Below are positions 46,744-60,762 of a stretch of DNA of 64,000 nucleotides, piece by piece. Made by a program: the position numbers and the translations under genes. Source of the DNA: Deltaproteobacteria bacterium. Lineage in GTDB: Bacteria > Myxococcota_A > UBA796 > GCA-2862545. The first letter of the stretch is position 1. Every line of letters starts with the position of its first letter. The notes under the pieces are model-generated. The model was not told the DNA's origin and made no database searches. It was given only the letters and a program-made list of their open reading frames with translations. The stretch is from NCBI GenBank assembly GCA_006226595.1, contig SBGP01000103.1:62001-126000 (forward strand), read 5' to 3'.

Positions 46744-47316
46744 TCAGTCCGCGGGCACCAGGGTGTGCACGAGGTGCTCGATGTACGAGCGCCGCTCGGC
46801 GCCGTCGGGAATCGCGCCCTGGGCCGAGGCGTGCACGGTGAATGTTCCCACGTACAGGGAGTAGCAGAGCAGCGCCCGCTGGTGCGCCGCTTCCTCGGGC
46901 AGTCCGAGCTCGCGGAACTGCGCGGCGATGAACGCGATGCGTCGCTGGGTCACGCGCTCGAGCGCTGGCTTGACCAGCGGGTGCTCGGCATCGGCGGCGA
47001 GGTGCACGAGGAGCGCGCCGGCGCCACGAACCGAGAAGGCCGTCTCGAACAGCGACTGCACGCGGGCGAGGGGGTCGTCGATCGCCGAGGCCTGCTCGAG
47101 CACCAGCGCCGTACCGCGCTCCTCCCAGAGCTCCAGGGCGGCCTGGACCAGGTCCTCGCGGGCCTCGAAGTGCCAGTAGAAGCTGCCCTTGGTCACACCG
47201 AGCTGACGCGCGATGGGCTCGACGCGCACCGCCTCCACGCCGCCCTCGGTCAGGGCACGCAGAGCGGCACCGGCCCACTTCTCTTTGCTCGCCTTTGGGG
47301 TTCGTCCTCGGGGCAC
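46744..47316 (-). CDS. TetR-family transcriptional regulator
   Basis: A 190-residue TetR protein. The N-terminal helix-turn-helix is visible in VRVEPIARQLGVTKGSFYWHF; the rest is a helical ligand-binding domain. The GTG start is supported by GGAGGA five bases upstream, and the reading frame further 5' lacks coding character. It is the last gene of the acyl-lipid operon, 50 bases after another TetR gene. Either TetR protein could be the repressor that binds the repeated palindrome at 52552 and 60743. Confidence 0.82.
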   Translation of the reverse strand: MPRGRTPKASKEKWAGAALRALTEGGVEAVRVEPIARQLGVTKGSFYWHFEAREDLVQAALELWEERGTALVLEQASAIDDPLARVQSLFETAFSVRGAGALLVHLAADAEHPLVKPALERVTQRRIAFIAAQFRELGLPEEAAHQRALLCYSLYVGTFTVHASAQGAIPDGAERRSYIEHLVHTLVPAD

Positions 47317-47366: not shown

Positions 47367-47981
47367 TCAGGCGAGAAGGCCCTTGAGCGAGAACTCGAGG
47401 ATACCGAGGGCGAGGCGGTGCGTGTCGACCTTGTCGTCGCCGCCGAGGTACTCCTCGACGACGGCACGAAACGCGCCGAGCACGCATACCGCCGCGAGCT
47501 GCGGGTCGCACTCGCGGATCAGGCCGAGCATCTGGCCTCGCCGCAGGCTCATTGCGATGAACGCGCGAAGGTTGCCGTAGAACTCGGACAGCTTGGCATC
47601 GACTTCCTCGTCGAGGCCCACCGCCACGCGGAGCACGATGCGCACGAACTGTCGCTGCTGGTCCACCGCGTCGAGGATACCGGTCACGGTGGTCACCAGC
47701 TGCTGGCGTACCGGCGCGGCGCCCTCGGACACGTCCACGCCGACGATGCTGTCGCGGAGGTTCTCGATCAGCTGGTCGAGCAGCTCGTGGAAGATGGCCT
47801 GCTTGCTGTCGAAGTACTGGTAGAAGGTGCCGCGGGCGACGCCAGCCGCTTTGACCACGTCGGTGATCGACGCGTCGTGGAAGCCCTTCTCGCTGAACAC
47901 GTCGAGGGCGACGTCGAGGATCTGTTGGCGGCGGGCTTCCCGTGCTTCGCGGGCGCGTTCCGCGCGTGCGGACTCAGGCAC
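47367..47981 (-). CDS. TetR-family transcriptional regulator, coupled to plsC
   Basis: A 204-residue TetR protein with helix-turn-helix ITDVVKAAGVARGTFYQYF and a helical effector domain (about 70-200). It starts with a GTG preceded by AAGGAGG and overlaps the plsC stop by eight bases, so it is translated with the lipid genes. This makes it the best candidate for an autoregulated repressor of the two operons with the shared palindrome. The effector may be an acyl-CoA or acyl-ACP, as for many TetR regulators of lipid genes; this is inference. Confidence 0.85.
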   Translation of the reverse strand: MPESARAERAREAREARRQQILDVALDVFSEKGFHDASITDVVKAAGVARGTFYQYFDSKQAIFHELLDQLIENLRDSIVGVDVSEGAAPVRQQLVTTVTGILDAVDQQRQFVRIVLRVAVGLDEEVDAKLSEFYGNLRAFIAMSLRRGQMLGLIRECDPQLAAVCVLGAFRAVVEEYLGGDDKVDTHRLALGILEFSLKGLLA

Positions 47982-48756
47982 GTCGACCTCCTTCGATGCC
48001 TTGCCAGTAGGCGTCCACCTTGTCGGCCACGACCCGCTGGACCTGCTCGGTGAGCGCAGGAACGTCCTCGGGCGTCAGGTCGGCGGTCTCGATGGGCTTC
48101 TCGCAGTTCACGGTCACCACACCGCCGGGGAGGAGCAGCTTGCTGCCCTTGCGCTGCTTCTCGTACATGCCGGTCACCGCCACCGGAATGATCGGGAGCT
48201 GAAGGGCTTGAGCGATGTAGAAGATGCCCTTGCGGAAGGTGCCGACCCGGCCGGTCGTCGTGCGCGTCCCCTCGGGGAACGCGAGGATGCTGTGGCCCTT
48301 GTCGAGCTCGGCACGAAAGCCGTCGAGGATCTCCTCGGTCTGCCCCTGGGAGCCCTTGCGTACGGGAATCGTGCCGCGGGACTTCATGAACCAGCCGTAG
48401 ACCGGGATCTTGAAGTGGTCCTCGAGCTCCACGCCCTGCTTGAAGTGCGGGGTCGCCGCGTACAGCACGACATGGTCGAACACGTTCACGTGGTTCTGGG
48501 CGAACAGATACGGGCGGTTCGGGTCGATGTCCGGGTGAACCACCGTCTCGTAGCGCGCGCCGGTGAGCGCGATCTGACCGCGGGTGTACAGCCGCGAGAA
48601 GCGGTCGATGCGGTCGGGCCCCAACACCGCGTGTCCGAGCATCATCGTGCTCATCATCGGTGTCATCCACGCCAGGCCGACGCCCCACATGCCGACGGAC
48701 ACGGCCTTGTCGACGAGGGTGGGCTCGGGCAGCTCGACGGACTCGCGCTCGTTCAT
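47974..48756 (-). CDS. plsC: 1-acyl-sn-glycerol-3-phosphate acyltransferase (PlsC-like)
   Basis: A 260-residue membrane-associated acyltransferase with a hydrophobic segment near the N-terminus, the catalytic NHVNVFDH (H-x4-D) motif (about 89), the FPEGTRTTTG motif that binds the phosphate (about 161) and IPVAVTGMYE. It would acylate lysophosphatidate or a related ether/alcohol-derived lipid. Its ATG overlaps the stop of the lipid-kinase gene. Confidence 0.85.
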   Translation of the reverse strand: MNERESVELPEPTLVDKAVSVGMWGVGLAWMTPMMSTMMLGHAVLGPDRIDRFSRLYTRGQIALTGARYETVVHPDIDPNRPYLFAQNHVNVFDHVVLYAATPHFKQGVELEDHFKIPVYGWFMKSRGTIPVRKGSQGQTEEILDGFRAELDKGHSILAFPEGTRTTTGRVGTFRKGIFYIAQALQLPIIPVAVTGMYEKQRKGSKLLLPGGVVTVNCEKPIETADLTPEDVPALTEQVQRVVADKVDAYWQGIEGGRRA

Positions 48757-49628
48757 GCCAACAGCTCCAGTGCGCCGGGCTCCACGACCAGGCGCTCGAG
48801 CGCCAGGGTCAGCACCTCGCCGTCGATCATGCACGCGGCCGGCTCGGCGAGGTCGAAGCGGACCTCGCGGGCGCGGTGGTGCTCGATCTCGGGCATGTGC
48901 ACGTGGGTGCCCTGGAAGATCTTTGGGAAGGCGGCGAGGAATCGACGTCGACCCAGCGGGCCGATGTGAATCACGTCGAGCTCGCCGTCGGTCGGGTCGG
49001 CGCCGGGCGCCATCTGCATCGTGCCGCCGGTGTACTGCGAGTTCGAGAACGACAGCAGTGTGCAGTCACGCTCGTCGAGCTCTCCGTCGTCGAGGCGGTA
49101 CGGGAAGCGGGGCCACTGCAGGCGCACCAGGCATTGCAGCGTCGCGAGCACGTAGCCGAGCGCGCCGAAGGCCTTGTAGCGCTCGTTGGTCACGTGGCCG
49201 GCGTCGGCGGTGAATCCGAGCGAGAGCAGGTTCACGTAGTGCAGCGCGCCCTCGGCATGCTCGATGCGCACGAGATCGATGCTGCGGGTCTTGCCGCGCG
49301 CCAGGGCGGCGTAGGCATCGTCGGTACACGTGATCGCGAAGTCGCGGAGGAAGGAGTTGCCGGTGCCGAGCGGCAGGATGCCGAGCTTGGGCCGGTCCTC
49401 GCGGGTAGCGAGCCCGTTGATGACCTCGAAGGTGGTGCCATCCCCGCCGGCGGCGATGACGAGCTCCGTCGTCGCCTCTCGTGCGAGTCGGGTCGCATCG
49501 CCGGGGCCGGCGGTCTGGACCAGGGTCACGTCGAAGCCGAGGGCCTGCAGCCGAGCGACGGCGCTCTTGGCCTGCTTTCCGGCACGCCCGCCGCCGGCAG
49601 CGGGATTGAGCACGAGAGTCGCGTTCAT
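48753..49628 (-). CDS. Diacylglycerol kinase-like lipid kinase (YegS/LCB5 family)
   Basis: A 291-residue kinase with the nucleotide-binding motifs LNPAAGGGRAGKQ (about 7), VIAAGGDGTTFEVINGL (about 57) and LGILPLGTGNSFLRD (about 82). These define the DAGKc fold found in diacylglycerol, sphingosine and undecaprenol-type lipid kinases. Next to plsC it suggests phosphorylation of a glycerolipid intermediate. ATGA overlaps on both sides. Confidence 0.85.
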   Translation of the reverse strand: MNATLVLNPAAGGGRAGKQAKSAVARLQALGFDVTLVQTAGPGDATRLAREATTELVIAAGGDGTTFEVINGLATREDRPKLGILPLGTGNSFLRDFAITCTDDAYAALARGKTRSIDLVRIEHAEGALHYVNLLSLGFTADAGHVTNERYKAFGALGYVLATLQCLVRLQWPRFPYRLDDGELDERDCTLLSFSNSQYTGGTMQMAPGADPTDGELDVIHIGPLGRRRFLAAFPKIFQGTHVHMPEIEHHRAREVRFDLAEPAACMIDGEVLTLALERLVVEPGALELLA

Positions 49629-51367
49629 GAGGCACTCCCGAGGAGCGTGCGCAGGTCCTCGCGCGCCGCGCCGTCCCGGATCGCGTCGGCGAGCTTGGGC
49701 CGCTTGACCTTCATCGAGGCGGTGCGCGGAAACTCCGCCTCCCACACGAGGACCGCGTCGATGCGCTTGTGCTCGGGCAGCTTGTGGTTCGCGCGGGCCA
49801 GGGGCGCGTGGAAGTCGTCCTCGCCGGGGCGGACGACCGCGACGAGCTGCTCGCCGACCATCGTGCGTGCCGGCCACAGGTAGTTCGCGGCGAACACGAC
49901 CAGCTCTTCGCAGGGCACATCCACAAACGCGCTCTCGATGTCCTCGGGGTACACGTTCTTGCCGCCCGCGGTGACGATCATGTTCTTGCGCCGGCCGACC
50001 AGGTGCAGGTGCCCGCTTGCGTCGAGGCGGCCGAGGTCTCCGGTACGAAGCCACTCGCCGTCGAACGCGGCCTCGGTCTGCTCGGGGTCGTCGAGGTAGC
50101 CGTTCATCACGGTGGGACCAGAGACGTACACCTCACCGATGCCGTCCGGTCCGGGCTCGTGGATGCGCACCTCCGTGCACGCGACGACCTTGCCCACGCT
50201 GTCGGCGCGGAACGGCGCGAGGTCATGGACGGCGACGACGGTGCACGCCTCGGTGAGGCCGTAGCCGATGACCACGGGGATGCCGTGGCGGTAGAAGAAC
50301 TCGGCGCGCTCCCGCTCGACGAAGGCACCGCCGCAGAACAGGAACTTCAGGCGTCCGCCGAAGCCGTCGTGGATGGGGGCGAGCAGGCGTCGCGACAGCT
50401 CGGTGCGGGGGCGGACCTCGGTGAGTGCGGCGTTCACGCTTGCGAGGCCGTCGACGGCGCGGCGCTTCCACGTGGGCAGCTCGTCGAGCTTCTCGCGAAG
50501 GCGTCGCTCGAAGGCCTCGAGGATCATCGGCACGATGGCCATGTGGGTGACCCGCTCGCGCTTCATGCTCCACACGAGGAACTCGGGACGCAGCGCGCGC
50601 TGATGCACGACGCGGGCGCCGCACACCCAGGGACCGAGGAAGCCGCAGGTGAAGTCGATGGCGTGGTTCGTCGGCAGGATCGAGAAGTACGCGTCGTCGG
50701 GGGCCATCGGGTACAGGTCGAGGAGCACGCCGAGCTGCGCGAGGTACGCACCGTGCGAGAGCATGCATCCCTTCGGATCGCCCCCCGTGCCGCTCGAGTA
50801 CACGATGGTCGCGACGTCTTCGGCGGTGCGTGGGTGCGGAGCGTCGGTGTTCGGCGCGTGCTCGAGGGCCTCGACGAAGCGCGCGTGTCCCTCGGGAAGC
50901 GCCGTGCGCTTCGGGGCCTCCGAGACCAGGGCGGCCGGTGGAGCCGTGAGGTGCCGATAGAAGGCGTACTCGGCGATGACCAGCTTGGCGCCGCTGTGGG
51001 CGAGCAGGGCATCGTGCTCGGGGCCGGTGAGCTTGTAGTCCAGAGGAACGAGCACCGCGCCGCGCGCGAACACGGCGGTCGCCGCGAGCAGCCACCGCGG
51101 CTGGTTGCTCATCACGATGGCGACGCGGTCGTCGGGGCCGATGCCCTGGGCCTCGAGCCAGCCGGTGAGGTGCTGCACCGCGCGGCGAACCTCGAGGAAG
51201 CTCCAGCGCGACGCCTCGCGTTTGCGTGACAGCTCGACCAGCGCGGTCCGCGACTTGTGCATCACCAGGGCGTCGTGGAGCATCTCGCCGAGGCAGGCAT
51301 AGGTGCGCGGATCCAGCGGCGCGAAGCCGCGGGGCCGGGGAACGCTCGCGCGGACCTGCTGGTTCAC
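49625..51367 (-). CDS. AMP-forming acyl-CoA/acyl-ACP ligase
   Basis: A 580-residue adenylate-forming enzyme. The ATP loop is VYSSGTGGDPKGCMLSH (T of the usual SSGTTG changed to G), with core motifs VVIGYGLTEA and WLRTGDLGRLD. A hinge and catalytic C-terminal lobe follow (GRRKNMIVTAGGKNVYPEDIE), with the catalytic Lys expected in RTASMKVKRP. It activates a fatty acid and loads it on CoA or on the adjacent acyl carrier protein, with which it overlaps (GTGA). Confidence 0.88.
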   Translation of the reverse strand: MNQQVRASVPRPRGFAPLDPRTYACLGEMLHDALVMHKSRTALVELSRKREASRWSFLEVRRAVQHLTGWLEAQGIGPDDRVAIVMSNQPRWLLAATAVFARGAVLVPLDYKLTGPEHDALLAHSGAKLVIAEYAFYRHLTAPPAALVSEAPKRTALPEGHARFVEALEHAPNTDAPHPRTAEDVATIVYSSGTGGDPKGCMLSHGAYLAQLGVLLDLYPMAPDDAYFSILPTNHAIDFTCGFLGPWVCGARVVHQRALRPEFLVWSMKRERVTHMAIVPMILEAFERRLREKLDELPTWKRRAVDGLASVNAALTEVRPRTELSRRLLAPIHDGFGGRLKFLFCGGAFVERERAEFFYRHGIPVVIGYGLTEACTVVAVHDLAPFRADSVGKVVACTEVRIHEPGPDGIGEVYVSGPTVMNGYLDDPEQTEAAFDGEWLRTGDLGRLDASGHLHLVGRRKNMIVTAGGKNVYPEDIESAFVDVPCEELVVFAANYLWPARTMVGEQLVAVVRPGEDDFHAPLARANHKLPEHKRIDAVLVWEAEFPRTASMKVKRPKLADAIRDGAAREDLRTLLGSAS

Positions 51368-51606
51368 AGGCGGTCCTCGAGCACGGCGGCGAGCCCGGCG
51401 AAGGTCGTCACGTCGGCGAGCTCGTAGTCCGGCACCTCGACGTCGAAGGCCTCCTCGAGATCGGTGAGCAGATCGAGTGCCTGCAGGCTGTCGATGCCGA
51501 GCGCTTCGAAGAAGTCGACGTCCGCGTCGAGGTCGGCGGCCTTGTCACCGAAGCGCTTGCTGGCGAGCTCGCGCAGGCGGGCCAGGATGTCGGAGGTCGT
51601 GGTCAT
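51364..51606 (-). CDS. Acyl carrier protein
   Basis: An 80-residue ACP with the phosphopantetheine attachment site at Ser40 in the EALGIDSLQAL motif and an acidic recognition helix (LTDLEEAFDVEVPD). It is a specialised ACP encoded with an acyl ligase, not part of a fab cluster. It would carry the acyl chain between the ligase and the reductase or acyltransferase. It starts 25 bases after the crotonase gene. Confidence 0.9.
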   Translation of the reverse strand: MTTTSDILARLRELASKRFGDKAADLDADVDFFEALGIDSLQALDLLTDLEEAFDVEVPDYELADVTTFAGLAAVLEDRL

Positions 51607-51631: not shown

Positions 51632-52522
51632 TCACGGCAGGTAGGGACGCACGTCGGTGCGGGCGACGAAATCGGTGAGGGCCGCTTCGACGCGGTCCTC
51701 GGTCACCATGCGCAGGAACTGACGCTTCTCGGCATCGAGGCGCTGGCGCGGCACGTGCTTGAGGAAGGCCTTTGCCTGGGCGACGACCTCGGCATCGAAG
51801 CGGGCGGCCTGGGCGGCGACGCGACGCGCGCTGTCGAGGCCCTTGTCCCGCGACACGACCTGGGCGACGAGGCCGAGCTCGGCGGCGCGACGCGCACCGA
51901 GCGAGCGCCCGGTGAGCAACAGGTCGCGCGTCATCGCGTTCCCGAGCTCGCGCTCGAGCCGGGGGATGCCACCAAAGCCGGGAATGATGCCCAGCCGCAG
52001 CTCGGGGAAGCAGAAGCGCGCGCTCTTCTCGGCGACGATGAGGTCCGCGGTCAGCGCGAGCTCGAAGCCCCCTCCGAACACCGGGCCGTGGACGACGGCG
52101 ATGGTGAGCAGGGGTGCGCGGTCCAGGGCGTCGAACACCGCGTGGATGCGGTCGATGAACTGGCTGATCTCGCGACGCACGAGGTGCTTGCCCACGCGGC
52201 GGGCGGCGCGGGTCGCGAGTCCGCGAACCGGGGAGGGGAGTCGCTCGGCGACCGCGGAGACTTGGGCCTTGCGACGGTCGGTGCGCTCGGTGATGCCGGC
52301 CTGCAGCTCGCGGAGGTCCGCGCCGGCGCAGAAGCCGCTCGCCAGGGTCGAGTGGAGGATGAGCGCCCGTGCGCCGCCGGCCCCATCTTCGAGGTAGCGG
52401 ACCAGGCCCTCGAGCTCGCGGAGCATGACGGTCCCGATCTCGTTGGTCGGCCCACGGTGCAGGGCGACCTCGAGGGCATCCCCGCGATGGGTCCAGGAAA
52501 GGGCTTCGCCAGCGAGCTCCAA
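51632..52522 (-). CDS. Enoyl-CoA hydratase/isomerase (crotonase) family protein
   Basis: A 296-residue crotonase. The oxyanion-hole motif SGFCAGADLREL, the GGGFELALTADL helix with its Glu and the second glutamate in CFPELRLGIIPGFGG are all present, so hydratase activity is possible. It has a longer helical insertion (about 80-120) than typical. The start is a TTG with GGAGG five bases upstream. It opens the second lipid operon, with the 22-base palindrome 30 bases before the start. Confidence 0.85.
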   Translation of the reverse strand: MELAGEALSWTHRGDALEVALHRGPTNEIGTVMLRELEGLVRYLEDGAGGARALILHSTLASGFCAGADLRELQAGITERTDRRKAQVSAVAERLPSPVRGLATRAARRVGKHLVRREISQFIDRIHAVFDALDRAPLLTIAVVHGPVFGGGFELALTADLIVAEKSARFCFPELRLGIIPGFGGIPRLERELGNAMTRDLLLTGRSLGARRAAELGLVAQVVSRDKGLDSARRVAAQAARFDAEVVAQAKAFLKHVPRQRLDAEKRQFLRMVTEDRVEAALTDFVARTDVRPYLP

Positions 52523-52551
52523 GCTGCCTCCGGTGCCCGTGACTAACGCAG

Positions 52552-52573
52552 CTAGACTGACATGTCAGTCTAG
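52552..52573. promoter_or_regulatory. 22-base perfect palindrome, TetR-type operator of the crotonase-plsC operon
   Basis: Half-site CTAGACTGACA is followed at once by its reverse complement. The inner 20 bases are identical to the palindrome at 60743-60762. On the minus strand CTGACA inside it can act as a -35 box with a TA-containing hexamer 17 bases downstream, so a bound dimer would block RNA polymerase. It ends 30 bases before the crotonase start codon. Confidence 0.8.
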
Positions 52574-52625
52574 TCTTTTCGCCCGCTGGCCTGTGCGCCT
52601 GTGCGCGCCGGCACGCGGCTGCGGT

Positions 52626-53276
52626 TCATCGCTTGCGGATCGAGCGGGTAAGCCGAAACGCGGCGCGCCATCCCGGTTGGTCGACGTAGCTCGCGAGCTG
52701 GCCCGCGCCGAGCTCTGCGCCCACCCACGTGGCGTCGGCGAGCGCGTAGTCGTAGGCGACCTGACCGGCCATCGCGGCGCCGGTGCCCGGCAGGGTGAGC
52801 ACGGCCTGCACGCGGTGATCCGCCATGGCCGTCCCAACTCCGATGTACCCGGCGGCGGGCACGCGGGTGAGCGGCAGGCCTCCGATGCCGACGAGGGCGT
52901 AGACCACGTCGTACTTGCCGACCCAGAGCTGCCCGAGACCGGTCCGATGACTGCCGTCGGTCATCGGATTCAGGCTGGGGCCGCGGGCGTAGCCGAGCAC
53001 GCCGAGTCCGAGGCTCACGCCGACATAGGGCGTGTCGATGCCCACCCGAGCCATGAAGCGCGTGTTGCGCTGGCCCAGCGAACCGAGGTGGTCGACGACC
53101 AGACCCCCGACGACCTGGACCGGACAGCGCTCGCCCAGGCACGGTGCAGCCTGGACTTCCAGGCCCACGGCACCTCCGGGAGCGACCATGGGACCCTCCA
53201 CGCCGGCGACGAGCTTGGCCTCGTGTCCCGCGAGCGGGGTGAGGGCGAGTGCGGATGCGACGAACAGAGCGAGCAT
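52626..53276 (-). CDS. Exported Gly/Ala-rich protein, possibly an outer-membrane protein
   Basis: A 216-residue protein with a signal peptide (about 1-17, MLALFVASALALTPLAG). The mature part has alternating beta-strand patterns (VGVSLGLGVLGYARG, YDVVYALVGIGGLPLTR, WVGAELGAGQLASYVD) and a basic C-terminus (RLTRSIRKR). This may be a small beta barrel, but the C-terminal residue is not aromatic as expected for most. AGGAGG lies six bases before the ATG. It is last in the reductase operon. Confidence 0.6.
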   Translation of the reverse strand: MLALFVASALALTPLAGHEAKLVAGVEGPMVAPGGAVGLEVQAAPCLGERCPVQVVGGLVVDHLGSLGQRNTRFMARVGIDTPYVGVSLGLGVLGYARGPSLNPMTDGSHRTGLGQLWVGKYDVVYALVGIGGLPLTRVPAAGYIGVGTAMADHRVQAVLTLPGTGAAMAGQVAYDYALADATWVGAELGAGQLASYVDQPGWRAAFRLTRSIRKR

Positions 53277-53316
53277 GGAGCCTCCTGCACCGGAGACTCC
53301 AAGTTTCGTGCCAGCG

Positions 53317-54384
53317 TCACCAGCCTCGCACAGGCGCCCACTGGCCGACGACCTCGTCGCCGCGCACGCCGTAGATGACCGGGTGCAGCGCGGCCACCAG
53401 GCAGCTGTGGTTGGGCAGCACGCGCACCTTCTCGAGGCCGGGCACGTAGCCCTTCGCGAGCCCGTGCTCCTGCGACAGGCCGTGCAGCGCGATTGGCAGC
53501 TCCTCGCCGTCGAGATCGAAGACGCGGCCGTAGCCCTCGCCGTGCCCCGGGTCCTTGGACAGGGCCAGCGCGCCGCAGTCGAGCACCATGCGGCCCATGT
53601 GCTGGCCGATGACCGAGGCGACCACGGACAGCGCGATGTCCTCGACCGCACACACGCCCAACCCCAGCTGGTGGAGGTCGAAGAACACGTAGTTGCCAGG
53701 CCGGATCTCGGTGACGCCGGTGAGGTCGTCGATCACGGAGCAGGTCGGCGTGCTCCCGACACTGACGTGGCGGAACCCCAGCCCGGCGTGGTCGGCGCGC
53801 GCCGCGAAGTCGACGACCGCATCGCGCTCCTGGCGTGCGATGGCGAGCAGGCCTTCGGGGTCGTCCTTGCAGCCGTAGCTGTGGCCGGCATGGGTGAGCA
53901 CGCCTCGCACGTCGAGGTGGTCGGCTTCCATCAGGGTCCGCAGCAGGTCCATGGACGCGGGGTCGGTCGGGTCGACGCCGGCGCGGTGATAGCCGCAGTC
54001 GATCTTGAGCCACACCCGCATCGGTCGGCGCGCCTCGACGAGCCGGGCTGCGGTCGCTGGAGTGTCGACGAGCACGCCGAGGTCGATGCGCTCGGCGAGC
54101 TCCGCGGCCTCCGCGAGCCGGGACGGCGGCAGGGGAAGGGCCCAGGTGATGTCGGTGAAGCCGTGCTTCGCGAAGTGGTGGGCCTCGGCGAGCGTGGACA
54201 CCGTGATGCCCTTGAATGGACCTGGGGTCTGCAGTCGGGCGACGTGGGGGATCTTGTGGGTCTTCACGTGCGGGCGGAGCCTGACGCCGAGCGCATCGGC
54301 CTTCGCGGCCATGGCCTCGGCGTTCCGCTCGACCACATCGAGGTCCATGACCGCACAGGGCGTGGGCAGGTCGTGGATGCGCAT
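53317..54384 (-). CDS. D-serine dehydratase/D-threonine aldolase-like PLP enzyme (alanine racemase fold)
   Basis: A 355-residue enzyme of the alanine-racemase-fold group. The PLP lysine lies in LRPHVKTHK (about 41), the phosphate-binding and barrel strands follow (GVLTHAGHSYG, VSVGSTPTCSV), and a His-x-Cys metal site typical of the DSD1/DTA group is seen in VLPNHSCLVA. Members cleave or dehydrate D-hydroxy amino acids using PLP and a divalent metal. The start overlaps the amidohydrolase stop, so the two act together in some way not evident here. Confidence 0.78.
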   Translation of the reverse strand: MRIHDLPTPCAVMDLDVVERNAEAMAAKADALGVRLRPHVKTHKIPHVARLQTPGPFKGITVSTLAEAHHFAKHGFTDITWALPLPPSRLAEAAELAERIDLGVLVDTPATAARLVEARRPMRVWLKIDCGYHRAGVDPTDPASMDLLRTLMEADHLDVRGVLTHAGHSYGCKDDPEGLLAIARQERDAVVDFAARADHAGLGFRHVSVGSTPTCSVIDDLTGVTEIRPGNYVFFDLHQLGLGVCAVEDIALSVVASVIGQHMGRMVLDCGALALSKDPGHGEGYGRVFDLDGEELPIALHGLSQEHGLAKGYVPGLEKVRVLPNHSCLVAALHPVIYGVRGDEVVGQWAPVRGW

Positions 54385-55793
54385 CAGTCCTCCGTGCCCA
54401 GGCGCTGCATCCAGCCGTCGGGCGTGTCCACGGTACCCGCTCGCACGACCAGGGATGCATCCCAGATCGCGCTGAGGTCCTCGGTGATGTCGGCGGGCAG
54501 CACGACCAGATCGGCGCGCATGCCGGGCGCGATGCGCCCGACCTCCGCCTCGATGCCGAGCATGCGGGCGGGCGTCCACGTGGCGGCGGTGAGCGCTTCG
54601 GTCGGGCTCATGCCGGCACCGCCGAGCAGCTCGAGCTCGCGCAGCGTCGTCGGGCCGTGGAACTCGGTGAGGAACACGGGCCAGTTGCCCGAGTCGCTGC
54701 CGAGCACGATCGGCACGCCGGCGGCGTGCTGCTTCGCGACGCTGTTCTGCATGCGCCGGACGCGCCCGCGTGTGAGCCCGGGCTTGTCGAGCAGGCCGCG
54801 CACGGTCTTCGCGAAGAAGCCATGGCGGTCGGGCAGCATGCTCGCCACCACGACGTCCTTCGACTCGGCCTGGTACCCGGGGTCGTTGGCAGTGACGAGC
54901 TCCTTGTCGGGGACGGCGCGCTGGAACGCCGCGCGCTGCAGCCGCTCGGGTTCGTGCTCGATGAGCAGCGCGTCGAACACGGACAGGGTGCTCACCACCC
55001 ACACCTGCTGATCCGCGAGTGCTCGGATCAGGCGCCGCTTCGGGTTCTGCGTCGGGTGGACGAAGCCGGTGACCCCGAGGTCGAGGCCACGCCAGTATTC
55101 GTCCGCGCTCATCGCATGCGCGTATACGCCCTGGTCGCGTTTGGCGGCCTCGGCGAACACGGCGTCGGCGACCTCGTCGGTGTACAGCGGCCACACCTTG
55201 ACGAGCATGCCCTCCTCGATGGTCGCCTTCACCCCGAAGGTGTCGAGCCCGTCGAAGGCCGCGAACTGCTCGGCTACGTCCTCGGCGTCGTGCGCGGGGG
55301 GAAAGCGGTCGGGGAGGACCACGCTGACGTAGCCACCCGGCGGCGAGACGAGCGGCCCGAGCAGGTGCACGTCGGGCGCCGGTCCCTCGGCCTCCAGCCG
55401 CCGCAGTCGGTGAGCGTCTTCGACGGGAATGCCTGTGTCGAGCACGGTGGTCACGCCACACGCCACGTAGGCCGCGAGGTGGTGCCGCATCGCCTCGTCC
55501 GGGTCTTCGGAGCGGAAGTACTCGCCCGGCGACAGCCCGAGGTGCACGTGCAGGTCCATGAGCCCGGGGATCACGGTCGCCCCAGCGAGGTTGCGCACCT
55601 TGTGGGGCGGGATGTCCGCGGGCAGCGCGCCCACGTGGGTGATGGTGTCCCCGTCGATGACGAGGGCCTCGACCTCGCGCTTGCCGTCGACGGCGTCCCA
55701 CACGGTCACGTGGGTGAACGCCGTGCGCGAGTCGACCGGAATCGCGAGCGGCGCCTCATCCTGGGCGAAGGCAAGGGACAGGAGCAGCAGCAC
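54384..55793 (-). CDS. Exported amidohydrolase-superfamily enzyme
   Basis: A 469-residue metal-dependent hydrolase with a signal peptide (about 1-10, LLLLSLAFA), so it probably works in the periplasm. The metal motif LMDLHVHLG (His-x-His), further ligands in VYAHAMSADE and TGFVHPTQ, and the Asp in IVLGSDSGNWP are in the order seen in imidazolonepropionase- and prolidase-like members. The substrate is unknown; cyclic amides and dipeptides are common in the group. It starts with GTG. Confidence 0.75.
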   Translation of the reverse strand: MLLLLSLAFAQDEAPLAIPVDSRTAFTHVTVWDAVDGKREVEALVIDGDTITHVGALPADIPPHKVRNLAGATVIPGLMDLHVHLGLSPGEYFRSEDPDEAMRHHLAAYVACGVTTVLDTGIPVEDAHRLRRLEAEGPAPDVHLLGPLVSPPGGYVSVVLPDRFPPAHDAEDVAEQFAAFDGLDTFGVKATIEEGMLVKVWPLYTDEVADAVFAEAAKRDQGVYAHAMSADEYWRGLDLGVTGFVHPTQNPKRRLIRALADQQVWVVSTLSVFDALLIEHEPERLQRAAFQRAVPDKELVTANDPGYQAESKDVVVASMLPDRHGFFAKTVRGLLDKPGLTRGRVRRMQNSVAKQHAAGVPIVLGSDSGNWPVFLTEFHGPTTLRELELLGGAGMSPTEALTAATWTPARMLGIEAEVGRIAPGMRADLVVLPADITEDLSAIWDASLVVRAGTVDTPDGWMQRLGTED

Positions 55794-55864
55794 GAGGCCT
55801 CCAGTCGGGGGCTATACCGCGCTCCCGGCGGCCCGCGGACGGGGTGTCGCCTCGTGTTGCAGCG

Positions 55865-57361
55865 TCAGGCGGCGTGGTCGGCGCGAACCCTCGCGACGCC
55901 GGCGGCCAGCTCGGGATGAAGCGGCGGCAGGTGGTCCCAGGGGTCGCCATCCGAGCCGAGACCTTTTCGGAACGGGAAGGTCGGGTGGTAGGCGCGCACC
56001 TGGTCGACGAGCAGCTGGCCCATCTTGCCCATGCGCTCGAGGTTGCGGACCACGCTGTCGAGGATGCCGTCTCGCACGGCCTCTTCGTGTGCATCCACCC
56101 AGTTCAGCACGTCGTACAGCGCTTGATCGAGGTCCGGGTCGTCCACCCGCAGGGCGAGCTCGGGGTGTCCGCGGTCGGCCATGAGGTTCGGGATGCGCTC
56201 GTCCATGGTGATGCCGATGGACGGGACCAGCGCGGGCATCGAGGTCACCGCGGCGTGGTAGCGGCTGGTGACCACGCGATCGGCGCGGCGGAGGAGGCCG
56301 ACGAGGGTGGTGTGCACGTGCTCGTCGCTGCACCACACCGGCACGCCGCCGAGGATCTCGGACAGCGGCTCGGCGGCGACCCGGTCGAGCGCCTCCATGC
56401 CGACGATGGCGACGAACGCGTCCTGCTCCTGGGCGTAGCGGCGCACCGCGGCGCCGAAGCGCTCGAGGTACGCGGCCTGCTTGGCCTCGACCTCGTCACC
56501 GCCCTTGTGGAAGTACACCGACGCGTAGTGCGTGTCCGCGTGGCTGCCGGTCAGCCAGTGGCTCACGCCCTTGGCCACGTCTGGCTTCACCGGCCACCAG
56601 AAGGCGTGGATCGGGCAGCAGATCACGAGCTTACGACCGTCGTAGCCCGCTTCTTCGAGCAGGCGGTCTGCCTCGGGAGACGGGCCCGGGTCGTAGGTCC
56701 AGGCGGTGTCGGTGCCGATGACGGCGGGCACGCCGAGCTCGCCGAGCACCTTCTTGCTGTTGTCGTTGCGCACGAGCATCAGCGACTCGCGGGCGTAGCG
56801 CCGCACGAGGTCCTGCAGCGCCGGGTCCATCTGACCGGCCTCGCCGCCGTACGCGACCGAGAGCTTGCCCTCGGCGTTCGCGAGCCCGAGCGCGCCGGTC
56901 ATCATCGTCGACAGCGCATTCGCGAACTTCGACTTGAACATCGAGCCTTCGCACGCGAGCACGCCATGGTGCTCGTGCACGGTCTCGACGAGGAACTTCG
57001 GGAAGATCTTCGGGAGCACGAGCTGGCGGACGGTACGGAAGTACCCGCGGGTCCGCTCGGGATCGATGGTGAGGATGGACAGCTCGAGCCAGTCGTCTCC
57101 GAAGAGGAAGCGCAGCTGCTTGATCATCTCCTCGACGCGCACGTCGGCCCCGGTGTTGCGGGTGCCCGAGTAGCCAGCGAGCAGCAGCTTGAGCGGCTCA
57201 CCCTCGCGCCAGACCGCACCTCGATCGAGGGCGGAGCGCGTGGCGGCGAACTCGATGCCTGCGGCCATGGAGCCGATCAGCGCACGGTCGGCATCGACGG
57301 CGGCGCTCAGGCCGTCGCTGACCTTGTCGCGGAGGCGCTCTCCGAGCTCGCGCCAGTTCAC
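55865..57361 (-). CDS. Polysaccharide pyruvyl transferase-family protein
   Basis: A 498-residue protein with the pyruvyl-transferase (CsaB-like) fold: an opening AGYSGTRNTGADVRVEEMI, a central GGEAGQMD segment, VRNDNSKKVLGELGV, and the C-terminal VVTSRYHAAVTSMPALVPSIGI that in CsaB contributes the active-site His and Ser. It would add a pyruvyl ketal to a surface glycan, but divergence leaves the substrate open. The GTG start overlaps the preceding reductase stop (GTGA). Confidence 0.7.
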   Translation of the reverse strand: MNWRELGERLRDKVSDGLSAAVDADRALIGSMAAGIEFAATRSALDRGAVWREGEPLKLLLAGYSGTRNTGADVRVEEMIKQLRFLFGDDWLELSILTIDPERTRGYFRTVRQLVLPKIFPKFLVETVHEHHGVLACEGSMFKSKFANALSTMMTGALGLANAEGKLSVAYGGEAGQMDPALQDLVRRYARESLMLVRNDNSKKVLGELGVPAVIGTDTAWTYDPGPSPEADRLLEEAGYDGRKLVICCPIHAFWWPVKPDVAKGVSHWLTGSHADTHYASVYFHKGGDEVEAKQAAYLERFGAAVRRYAQEQDAFVAIVGMEALDRVAAEPLSEILGGVPVWCSDEHVHTTLVGLLRRADRVVTSRYHAAVTSMPALVPSIGITMDERIPNLMADRGHPELALRVDDPDLDQALYDVLNWVDAHEEAVRDGILDSVVRNLERMGKMGQLLVDQVRAYHPTFPFRKGLGSDGDPWDHLPPLHPELAAGVARVRADHAA

Positions 57362-58491
57362 GCGGCCTCCGAGAAGCCCGCCGGAAGCGGCACGTAGGGG
57401 TACTTGAACCCCCGCTCCTTGACCCAGGCGATGTGCGCGCCGCCGTAGTCGACGAAGTGCGCGGGCTGGGCGGCACTCGCGGCGACGGCGCGCTGGTTGT
57501 CGTGGGTCACGTTGCTCACGATGTACGGCCAGAACACCTTGAGCAGCACACTGGCGCCCTGGAGCGGGTTGCCTCGCGGAAGGCGGCTTCCCGCGCGGGA
57601 GGCGGCGAAGAAGCCCTGCTGCAGGTGGGGGGCGAAGCGCAGCTTGCGGAAGCCGTGCTCCGCGAGGGCCTCGCCGATCTCGCGCGTCGTGGGCGACGCC
57701 TTGCCGGCCGAGAGGAAGTAGATCACGTGCTTCGGGGACGGATCGAGGTGGATGGCGGCCATGGCCTTGCCCACCCAGTCGGCGTTGACGACGTCGAACT
57801 GGATGTCGGGAGACATCGGCACGACCGGCAGGTTCGCCAACCACACGAAGGCCGAGGGCATCTCGAAGCTGGTCGTCCGCGGGTGGCGGGAGTCGCCGAC
57901 GACGGTCGCCGGCCGGAAGATGACGCGCGACACGTCGGCGGGAAGCAGGCGCTGAACCATCTCCTCGCAGACGCGCTTGGTCTCGGAGTAGGGGTCGAGG
58001 GCGTTCACGCCGAAGTCCAGGCTGTCGTCCTCTTGCAGGTGCTCGTCCTTGCGGTCACCGACCACGGCGGCGGTGGACACAAAGGTGTAGCGCCTCAGTC
58101 GGCCGCGCTCGTGCAGGGCCCTGGCGAGCTCGAGGGTCGAGATGGTGCCGCGCACGTTGCTGTTCACGCACACGCGGCTCGACATGCGGTTGAGCGAGGC
58201 GGCCCCGTGAAAGATGCGGGTGCACTCGGACAGCACGCGCTCGCGGTCGGCGGGAGCGAGCCCCAGCTCGGGCGCGTGGAGGTCGCCGCCAACGAGCACC
58301 ACGCGGTCGAGTACCGCGCGGAAGCGCTCGGCATCGATGTGCAGCTGCAGGCAGTTCCACAGCTTCTCGACCCGGTGGGCATGGTCGCGTCCGCGCACGA
58401 GCAGGAACACGGTCTCGTCGGAGCGGTCGAGGTGCTCGAGCAGCGTGTAGCCGCCGAGGTAGCCGGTGCCGCCGGTCATGAACGTCGCCAT
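57358..58491 (-). CDS. Extended SDR, thioester-reductase/male-sterility-like domain protein
   Basis: A 377-residue NAD(P)-dependent enzyme with Rossmann motif TGGTGYLGGYTLL, the FVSTAAVVGD segment and the active-site DPYSETKR (Y-x3-K). The organisation is that of NAD_binding_4 thioester reductases, which reduce acyl thioesters to aldehydes or act on fatty acyl substrates. It follows the alcohol-forming reductase gene with a one-base overlap (TGATG), so the two may be sequential enzymes or a heteromer. Confidence 0.78.
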   Translation of the reverse strand: MATFMTGGTGYLGGYTLLEHLDRSDETVFLLVRGRDHAHRVEKLWNCLQLHIDAERFRAVLDRVVLVGGDLHAPELGLAPADRERVLSECTRIFHGAASLNRMSSRVCVNSNVRGTISTLELARALHERGRLRRYTFVSTAAVVGDRKDEHLQEDDSLDFGVNALDPYSETKRVCEEMVQRLLPADVSRVIFRPATVVGDSRHPRTTSFEMPSAFVWLANLPVVPMSPDIQFDVVNADWVGKAMAAIHLDPSPKHVIYFLSAGKASPTTREIGEALAEHGFRKLRFAPHLQQGFFAASRAGSRLPRGNPLQGASVLLKVFWPYIVSNVTHDNQRAVAASAAQPAHFVDYGGAHIAWVKERGFKYPYVPLPAGFSEAA

Positions 58492-60068
58492 CAGGCCGTC
58501 CTCGACAGGGTGTGGGTAGGCGCGCCGAGGACCACGGCAGGGGTGTGCGGCGGGTCATCGGGCACGGTACCGCCGCTGATCAGCGGGAAGCACCACTTCT
58601 TGAGCCCGGGGTACTCGACGTCGATCCAGTACGCGCGCCAGTCGAGGTCGGCGATGTCGAAGGCGAAGGCTGCGTGCTCCTCTTCGGGCAGCGCCTCGGT
58701 GAGGAGCAGGGCGTGGTCGCTCAAGAACACCCAGTCGTGGTCGTGCGTGAACGGCTGGAACAGCTCGAGCAGCGCGTCGATACGGCGCAGCTGTCGCGAC
58801 GTGTCGGCGAGACGCGTGCTCATGCGCGAACGCAGGTCGTCGAGCAGGGGGCCGAGCATCTCGCGGGCCGGCTCGCTCCACTCGTCCTCGGGACGGGCGC
58901 TCCGGATGCGCTTCTTGAGCCAGTCCGCGGCGTTGCGGGCGCGACCCACCGTGAACAGGGCCTTGTCGTCGACGGGCGCGGGCACGGGGTCGAGGTGGCG
59001 CAGCCACGCGTCCTTGCCGCCCTTGCGGGTGTCCTTGCGCACCGCGAGGCCATTGAGCTCGATGCACCGGCCAAAGCTCATCGGGTTGATGCCGCTCGAT
59101 CCGAGCTGGTACAGCTTCTCGGCTCGGCCCTGAATCAGCGCGGCGCCGACCAGGGACAGGCCCCGTCCGATGAGGTCGACGGGCACGACGTCGAAGTGGT
59201 GGTGCTCGACGGAGGGCAGGCTGCGGAAGGGGCTCGCGATCAGCCAGGACACGGGGCCAGCGGTGTTGATGCCCTCGTTCCAGCCGGGGAAGGGGAAGCG
59301 CCACGCGCACTCGACGACCGAGGGGCGCACGATGGCGAACTCGAGGTCGGCCCGGTGCTGGAGCAGGCGCTCGGCGAGGCTCTTCGTGTAGGTGTAGATG
59401 TTGGGAAAGCCCAGGGCCTCGGCGCGTTCCTTTCCGATGTCGATGCGCGCCCGGGCGCGCTTGGCGGCGTTGCCTTCGCTGCATGCCGCGCGCAGGGCCT
59501 CGACCTCGGCCTTGGGGTCGAGGGGCGAGCCGTTGGGGGCCATCGCGCCGGGCAGGATCTCGGGGATGGTGCCGTCCACGCGACCGGCGACGAAGCAGGT
59601 CGACACGTGCACGAGGCGCGGGCTGTCGAAGCTCGCGACCACGGAGGCGAGCTCGAGCGTGGCGTCCACGTTCGCGCGCAGGGCGGCCATGGGGTCGGGC
59701 ATGAAGTCGGTGAGCCCGGCGCTGTGCACGGTCAGGTCGACGCTGTGCCGCAGGAAGTCGAGCTCCTCGGGATCGATGCCGCACCCGGGCTCGGAGAGCT
59801 CGGCGCGCACGACCGCGATGCGCTCGGCGGCGAACCGACCCCAGTCCTTGCCGTGCCGCTCGCGGAGGGGCCGGAACGCGGGGCTGCTGCCGAGGATGTC
59901 GGCGATGCGCTCCGCGGCGGAGATCTTGCCCTTGTCCCGGACGAGCAGGGTCACGCGACCGATGCGCGGCACGTGCCACAGGACCTGGGCCAGCCAGACC
60001 TTGGCAAGGAAGCCGGTCGCGCCGGTGAGCAGCACGTGCTTGCCAGAGAGGGTGTCGACGACGCTCAT
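58491..60068 (-). CDS. Alcohol-forming fatty acyl-CoA reductase (FAR)
   Basis: A 525-residue reductase of the FAR family. The N-terminal Rossmann motif is LLTGATGFLAKVWLAQVL, a VHVSTCFVAG strand follows, and the catalytic YTYTKSLAE gives Y-x3-K. The C-terminal part (about 370-480) is the sterile-domain region of FARs, which helps pass the aldehyde on to alcohol. It would reduce acyl-CoA or acyl-ACP to a fatty alcohol. ATGA coupling to the HAD-like gene upstream. Confidence 0.82.
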   Translation of the reverse strand: MSVVDTLSGKHVLLTGATGFLAKVWLAQVLWHVPRIGRVTLLVRDKGKISAAERIADILGSSPAFRPLRERHGKDWGRFAAERIAVVRAELSEPGCGIDPEELDFLRHSVDLTVHSAGLTDFMPDPMAALRANVDATLELASVVASFDSPRLVHVSTCFVAGRVDGTIPEILPGAMAPNGSPLDPKAEVEALRAACSEGNAAKRARARIDIGKERAEALGFPNIYTYTKSLAERLLQHRADLEFAIVRPSVVECAWRFPFPGWNEGINTAGPVSWLIASPFRSLPSVEHHHFDVVPVDLIGRGLSLVGAALIQGRAEKLYQLGSSGINPMSFGRCIELNGLAVRKDTRKGGKDAWLRHLDPVPAPVDDKALFTVGRARNAADWLKKRIRSARPEDEWSEPAREMLGPLLDDLRSRMSTRLADTSRQLRRIDALLELFQPFTHDHDWVFLSDHALLLTEALPEEEHAAFAFDIADLDWRAYWIDVEYPGLKKWCFPLISGGTVPDDPPHTPAVVLGAPTHTLSRTA

Positions 60069-60712
60069 CGCGCCTCCACGATGGGCCAGTCGAGCTCGCG
60101 GGCGACGCGGCGCAGGCCCCGGTCAGGGTGCGCGGCGCAAGGAAGTCCGACCTGAGCGAGCAGCAGCTTGTCAGCCTCGGCGGAACCGTAGGCGGCGCTG
60201 GTGTCGAGGTCCACGTCGTGCTCGCGGGCCCACTGCTTGAGCATGCCGCCGACGTTCTCGCCGACCACAGGGTCCAGCAGCCGCCCGGTCGCGCGTCCGT
60301 CGCGGTACTCGAGGCGGTTGCACAGCAGCTCGGCGCCGAGCTGATCGGCGAGGGGCTGCATGACTTCGGCGAGGTTGTCCGAGATGAGCACGACGCGGTC
60401 GTGACGCTTGCGGGCCTGCGCGACGAGCTCGACTCCGGCCTCGCGGAGCTTGCCGTCGAAGTGCGCCTCGAACAGCTCTTCACCGAGCACGGTGATGCGG
60501 TCCTCGGTCTGGCCGCGGAGTGCAGCCCAGCCGAGCTTCATCGCGTCGGTTCGGCCACCCGAGATCGCAAAGGGCAGGGCGAGGGCGGCGGCGCCGAGTC
60601 GCGTGAAGCGCTCGCGCACGAGCTGGGCGTTCGCCGCGAGCCAGGCGGCGGAGGCGAGGGTGGGGCGGCCGGTGAGCACCCCCTCCACGCGCACGAAGGC
60701 TGCAGACTCCAT
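60065..60712 (-). CDS. HAD-IB-like protein lacking the catalytic aspartates
   Basis: A 215-residue protein of SerB/HAD-IB architecture. In motif I, where DxDGT is expected, the residues are R-V-E-G-V (FVRVEGVLTG), so the nucleophile Asp is Arg and the acid/base Asp is Glu. Motif II (VVLISDNLAE) is present. Motif IV reads AYGSAEADKLLL instead of AYGDSxxD, losing a metal ligand. The downstream PCAAHPDRGLRRVA still follows the family. It is likely a binding or structural partner of the reductase rather than a phosphatase. It is first in the reductase operon, 31 bases after the palindrome. Confidence 0.75.
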   Translation of the reverse strand: MESAAFVRVEGVLTGRPTLASAAWLAANAQLVRERFTRLGAAALALPFAISGGRTDAMKLGWAALRGQTEDRITVLGEELFEAHFDGKLREAGVELVAQARKRHDRVVLISDNLAEVMQPLADQLGAELLCNRLEYRDGRATGRLLDPVVGENVGGMLKQWAREHDVDLDTSAAYGSAEADKLLLAQVGLPCAAHPDRGLRRVARELDWPIVEAR

Positions 60713-60742
60713 GAGTCCTCCCGGCCCGTGGTGTATCGCGAC

Positions 60743-60762
60743 TAGACTGACATGTCAGTCTA
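60743..60762. promoter_or_regulatory. 20-base palindrome, TetR-type operator of the HAD-FAR operon
   Basis: Half-site TAGACTGACA followed by its reverse complement, identical to the inner 20 bases of the palindrome at 52552-52573. It lies 31 bases before the start codon of the HAD-like gene, the same spacing as at the other operon. On the minus strand CTGACA is followed 17 bases later by TACACC, a plausible promoter overlapped by the site. Confidence 0.8.

Follow-up and report, generated by a model that had tools for sequence, protein, structure and literature searches.

Two kinds of bacterial ether-lipid genes are known. In Myxococcus xanthus, ElbD combines a FAR1-like domain, an acyl-CoA ligase, an acyl carrier protein (ACP) and an acyltransferase in one protein, and a HAD protein and epimerase-type SDRs are encoded beside it (PMC9131029). 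PlsA (plasmalogen synthase) and Ger (glycerol ester reductase) are of the 2-hydroxyacyl-CoA dehydratase/activase kind and turn ester into ether bonds (PMC9702350, PMC12838417, PMC8788747, PMC11868695); plasmalogen synthase genes have been cloned from L. cremoris (PMC12838417). In Enterococcus faecalis a TetR gene, EF1326, lies directly upstream of pls (EF1326-EF1327), and strict anaerobes are said to lack this TetR (PMC9702350). A 2022 review called for conclusive data on any regulation of the elb operons and on its mode (PMC9131029). Here we describe a 20-base palindrome that precedes two lipid operons in a 64,000-nt stretch (the window, to which all positions refer) of the 7.23 Mb genome of a Deltaproteobacteria bacterium. 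Comparative sequence analysis makes it probable that this palindrome serves as operator for a FadR-like TetR repressor, TetR1, which would repress ether-lipid synthesis in an acyl-CoA-responsive manner.

An identical palindrome precedes two lipid operons

The first copy (52553-52572) is the perfect palindrome TAGACTGACATGTCAGTCTA, which reaches 22 bases with its flanks (52552-52573), and the second (60743-60762) is an identical 20-mer. The genes behind them, for an enoyl-CoA hydratase/isomerase (ECH) and a HAD-IB-like hydrolase (HAD), lie on the - strand, the 20-mer being read on the + strand, and the gap between 20-mer and start codon is exactly 30 bases at both (ECH TTG at 52522; HAD ATG at 60712). 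A preliminary description of this DNA had reported such an exact repeat, its first copy extended to 22 bases, at a matched distance of 30-31 bases from the start codons, and had judged the identity very unlikely to arise by chance. The coordinates and the distance are confirmed, and 100 shuffles gave 0 expected copies of the 20-mer. Across the whole genome, with up to 3 mismatches allowed, the 20-mer matched the window's two copies only, and the reversed pattern, used as a control, had no match.

The 16-base core GACTGACATGTCAGTC has two more occurrences in the genome, one exact at C18:95412 and one with 1 mismatch at C65:42075. The earlier count of two sites thus stands for the 20-mer and not for the core, which raises it to at least four candidate target sites. 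On C18, the core stands 21 bp ahead of the genome's sole DUF2229 gene, whose 1,154-aa product also has a BcrAD_BadFG domain. The C65 core is directly ahead of the gene for a 531-aa protein, which had no match of its own in Pfam, NCBIfam or PDB and which we regard as HgdB-like because the HgdB-like C-terminal part of the fused DUF2229 proteins of other genomes aligns with it. When the operator letters were looked up in the literature, the 12-base centre was matched in two papers, of which the one listed concerns melanoma, and the other spellings gave no match.

Within the palindrome, CTGACA is one base off the -35 consensus and would place a promoter over the operator at both copies. The predicted ECH-operon promoter (52540-52568, - strand) has its -35 at 52563-52568, inside the operator, and after a 17-nt spacer the -10 hexamer TAGTCA (52540-52545); the predicted HAD-operon promoter (60730-60758, - strand) has its -35 at 60753-60758 and, after the same 17-nt spacer, TACACC (60730-60735). 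Both -10 hexamers are weak matches to TATAAT. At this 17-base spacing, TA forms the first two -10 bases at 16 of the family's 22 operon sites, against a background of ~0.011 in the following stretch, a count that lends support and is no independent probability, the 22 sites being related by descent. BadF operators in sister families are often nearer the start codon and lack TA at the -10 offset. The use of CTGACA as a -35 box with a 17-base spacer, suggested earlier for the two window sites, is supported by this conserved TA, and the comparative evidence likewise supports a TetR-type operator over the promoters of both lipid operons.

The operator keeps its place before lipid genes

To follow the site beyond this genome, 20-mer sites with up to 2 mismatches were counted in 71 genomes of the class, picked by kinship and not by motif. 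All 38 sites precede, by 4-166 bp, a gene from one of two lipid modules, which are the HAD-FAR-SDR-PPT-ECH-ACP-ligase-PlsC cluster (FAR, fatty acyl reductase; PPT, polysaccharide pyruvyl transferase-like) and the DUF2229/BadF genes. The gene is BadF at 16 sites, HAD at 13, ECH at 5, PPT at 2, and ACP and a fused DUF2229 gene at 1 each; the reversed control gave 0 sites in the 71 genomes. A sample of 284 genomes from the phylum contained 20 exact core sites, 20/20 upstream of such module genes, with 0 for the reversed control. The operator stands directly ahead of DUF2229 proteins from three separate clades. In one genome (L084, G076) a single fused DUF2229 gene is preceded by a pair of operators 80 bp from each other.

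Split-off pieces of the cluster carry their own operator copy. In most members of the family the cluster is one long string with a single operator before HAD. In the window's genus it is split (53317-55793) by an amidohydrolase (54384-55793, - strand) and a D-amino-acid-type enzyme of the alanine-racemase fold, D-serine-dehydratase-like (53317-54384, - strand, start inferred), both found at this spot in this genus only, and the operator recurs before ECH at the split. Two genomes of another genus (G011 and G012, genus g5) have operators before PPT and before ECH, and G014 has one before ACP. This fixed placement, at lipid modules and at cluster splits, strongly supports a shared regulator and excludes a dispersed repeat, which the two copies in 7.23 Mb and the conserved placement in dozens of genomes also rule out; the chance that the palindrome is such a repeat, or an accidental identity, in favour of which no observation was found, is negligible.

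Farther afield, the operator precedes beta-oxidation-type genes in Desulfobacterota (L096, L031, L076) and, in Bipolaricaulota (L008, L043), a TetR gene with a large open reading frame close behind it, which in L008 encodes an MMPL-family transporter. Because of these beta-oxidation-type genes and this TetR-MMPL pair, the TetR clade described below would seem to serve acyl-lipid genes more widely. At L274, L101, L046 and L044 the beginning of the TetR gene itself seems to overlap with the operator, so that MTDMS or MTD is encoded near the N-terminus. In a 257-Gb collection ~60 exact 16-mer matches are expected by chance, so that not every match there carries meaning, and matches such as those in Paracoccus, Dyella or Streptomyces have no related neighbours.

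TetR1 is most likely the cognate repressor

The regulator had been sought earlier in one of the two TetR proteins encoded at the end of the second operon. TetR1 (47367-47981, - strand), with a TetR_N and a TetR_C_24-like C-terminal domain, falls into one clade (98/96) with the operator-adjacent TetRs of many phyla and with a paralogue on C65, a clade that also takes in a few other TetRs of this genome and has some long branches. Its recognition helix reads ARGTFY, which is invariant or nearly so across 31 clade members, and TetR1 accompanies the cluster in further genera of the family. Because it travels with the cluster, sits in the operator-linked clade and shares ARGTFY, TetR1 can be singled out as most likely the cognate repressor, and the operator-TetR link, as judged from these comparisons, is strong. 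TetR2 (46744-47316, - strand, start inferred), which comes directly after TetR1 in the ECH string, is a very improbable regulator of the site: it forms a long branch outside the operator-linked clade, its recognition helix is TKGSFY, and it was seen with the cluster in the same genus only.

The C65 paralogue (L182:4733-5401) deserves more weight, since within the clade it groups with TetRs adjoining the BadF operators of sister families, and it is encoded ~5 kb from the HgdB operator; in view of this grouping it may share some of the sites. That it is the main regulator of all four sites, or shares them with TetR1, nevertheless seems unlikely to us: its helix deviates (GCSRGTFY vs GVARGTFY) and it adjoins no operator, whereas TetR1 remains linked to the cluster in other genera.

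Relatives of TetR1 point to a probable long-chain acyl-CoA ligand

In a profile search, the best solved relatives of TetR1 include FadR of B. subtilis and of B. halodurans, and the best fold matches of its predicted structure (mean pLDDT, the predicted local distance difference test score, 93.8) are FadR, FasR with C20-CoA, and PfmR. The FadR proteins are thus the closest to TetR1 by both profile and fold, with FasR not far behind, and like TetR1 they belong to the TetR family; they are acyl-CoA-responsive regulators of fatty acyl genes. The likeness is distant, however, at ~26% identity, and TetR1 stays far under the curated NCBIfam cut-off for FadR (61.8 of 200 bits). Known FadR proteins regulate fatty-acid degradation, and the B. 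subtilis FadR operator differs from the window palindrome. MftR (mycofactocin regulator), another TetR-family protein, is the best NCBIfam match of TetR1 by E-value, yet TetR1 is far below that family's cut-off as well (67.7 of 224.9 bits). The MftR palindrome, T-N2-GGCA-N5-TGCC-N2-A, is different, and the window palindrome was accordingly rejected as an MftR operator. MftR is freed from DNA by oleoyl-CoA, a long-chain acyl-CoA (PMC8728441). By analogy with these relatives, an acyl-CoA would be the natural effector for TetR1.

FasR, one of the closest folds, is named an activator by NCBIfam, and TetR1 might likewise act mainly as an activator. We consider this quite improbable, given that the operator overlaps the -35 hexamer, at a 17-nt spacer from a conserved -10, the usual place of a repressor.

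The two operons carry the ElbD domain types as separate genes

The second copy of the operator precedes the HAD-FAR-SDR-PPT operon and the first the ECH-ACP-ligase-kinase-PlsC-TetR1-TetR2 string, each of them probably one transcript because many of the adjacent genes overlap or abut. The former, all on the - strand, starts with the ElbB-like HAD gene (60065-60712) and continues with FAR (58491-60068; NAD_binding_4 and Sterile domains, like the N-terminal domain of ElbD), SDR2 (57358-58491; an NAD_binding_4/epimerase-type reductase, ElbE-like) and PPT (55865-57361; start inferred, conserved in the cluster). The latter, also on the - strand, consists of ECH (51632-52522), an 80-aa ACP with a DSL attachment motif (51364-51606), an AMP-forming acyl ligase (49625-51367), a diacylglycerol-kinase-like lipid kinase (48753-49634, start inferred), a PlsC-type acyltransferase (47974-48756, start inferred) and the two TetRs. 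The ACP gene, under the 90-aa cut-off of the first list of reading frames, was found in the gap between ECH and ligase and confirmed by PF00550. A small predicted exported or membrane protein without Pfam match (52626-53279, - strand) lies just ahead of the ECH copy of the operator; in G019 the gap is too short to hold a small protein of this type.

All domain types of ElbD (FAR, acyl-CoA ligase, ACP and acyltransferase) are thus present as separate reading frames, and in the window none of them are fused in one protein, the fusions being found in other genomes only. The window shares with elb of M. xanthus the HAD, SDR/epimerase, FAR, acyl-CoA ligase, ACP and acyltransferase parts; it differs in that its genes are unfused and spread over two operons, which also include ECH, PPT and a lipid kinase. 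This suggests that the window cluster is a dissociated form of ElbD. Outside the family, the FAR matches in the class are mostly long ElbD-like reading frames in HAD-x-ElbD clusters, and two genomes have the operator at a fused arrangement. G073 has a TetR1-like gene and the operator ahead of HAD, a LarA-like gene and a FAR-ligase-ACP-acyltransferase protein of 1,435 aa; in G072, by order, come a TetR1-like gene, the operator, a HAD match (30-31%) just after it, and a FAR-ligase-PlsC fusion. Neither genome has a DUF2229 gene, and in each of them the core, with up to 1 mismatch allowed, gives one operator. A LarA-like gene such as that beside ElbD in G073 is absent from the window.

From this gene content, the two operons most likely form one ether-lipid pathway with the ElbD domain types as separate proteins, and its product would be an ether lipid; the DUF2229 protein on C18, of the split type, is a candidate for a PlsA/Ger-like activity of its own. 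The operator might instead mark a general fatty-acid-responsive TetR regulon in which the window genes make a fatty alcohol, a wax ester or a modified glycolipid. The sites in Desulfobacterota, which precede genes for a 3-hydroxyacyl-CoA dehydrogenase, an acyl-CoA dehydrogenase and a MaoC hydratase, fit such a regulon, as does the one in a Bipolaricaulota genome before a TetR gene and then an MMPL transporter, and FAR with an acyl ligase is also compatible with fatty alcohol production. We hold this to be rather unlikely, though it is the strongest competitor, since the targets found within class and phylum are confined to the two lipid modules, the ElbD domain set in the window is complete, and the operator stands ahead of an ElbD-type cluster elsewhere.

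Besides the grouping of the C65 paralogue, several observations count against an ether-lipid regulon under TetR1. No site was found within 3 mismatches at the BadF genes of genus g21 and G070, or at the ElbD-like clusters examined in sister families. In Desulfatibacillum alkenivorans, an ether-lipid producer, the operator precedes a beta-oxidation gene and was not found before its DUF2229 genes, which were rejected as targets there. Finally, the DUF2229 protein of our genome is ~23% identical to the D. alkenivorans candidates and sits on a separate long branch, in a tree without characterised PlsA or Ger.

Discussion

From what the computations show of the operator, of its conservation and neighbouring genes, and of the clade of TetR1, we infer the following course of regulation. 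A TetR1 dimer would bind over the -35 of both operons and block RNA polymerase, and TetR1, as part of the ECH operon, would limit its own expression. A build-up of long-chain acyl-CoA (or acyl-ACP) would cause TetR1 to bind this ligand and leave the DNA, and the regulon would be switched on. This regulon would comprise at least four transcription units: HAD-FAR-SDR-PPT, ECH-ACP-ligase-kinase-PlsC-TetR1 and, on other contigs, the DUF2229/BadF gene and the HgdB-like gene.

The arrangement recalls E. faecalis EF1326-EF1327, where a TetR gene also lies beside a plasmalogen synthase gene. The window system, however, belongs to a different phylum and takes in an ElbD-like gene set as well; for the E. 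faecalis pair, no operator sequence was found in the excerpts of PMC9702350. DUF2229 was also matched in Lactococcus lactis. In its widest form, which we put forward tentatively and at somewhat less than even chances, our proposal is that one TetR repressor clade and a near-invariant operator bring the ElbD-type pathway, which is dissociated here, together with the PlsA/Ger-type reductases in one regulon that crosses phyla, broken-up pieces of the cluster carrying operator copies.

The proposed regulator is of a known kind; its operator is conserved unusually well, and its set of targets is new. For the regulation of bacterial ether-lipid synthesis this locus offers a defined DNA site, a named candidate repressor and a short list of targets, and the operator motif could flag lipid gene clusters in uncultured bacteria.

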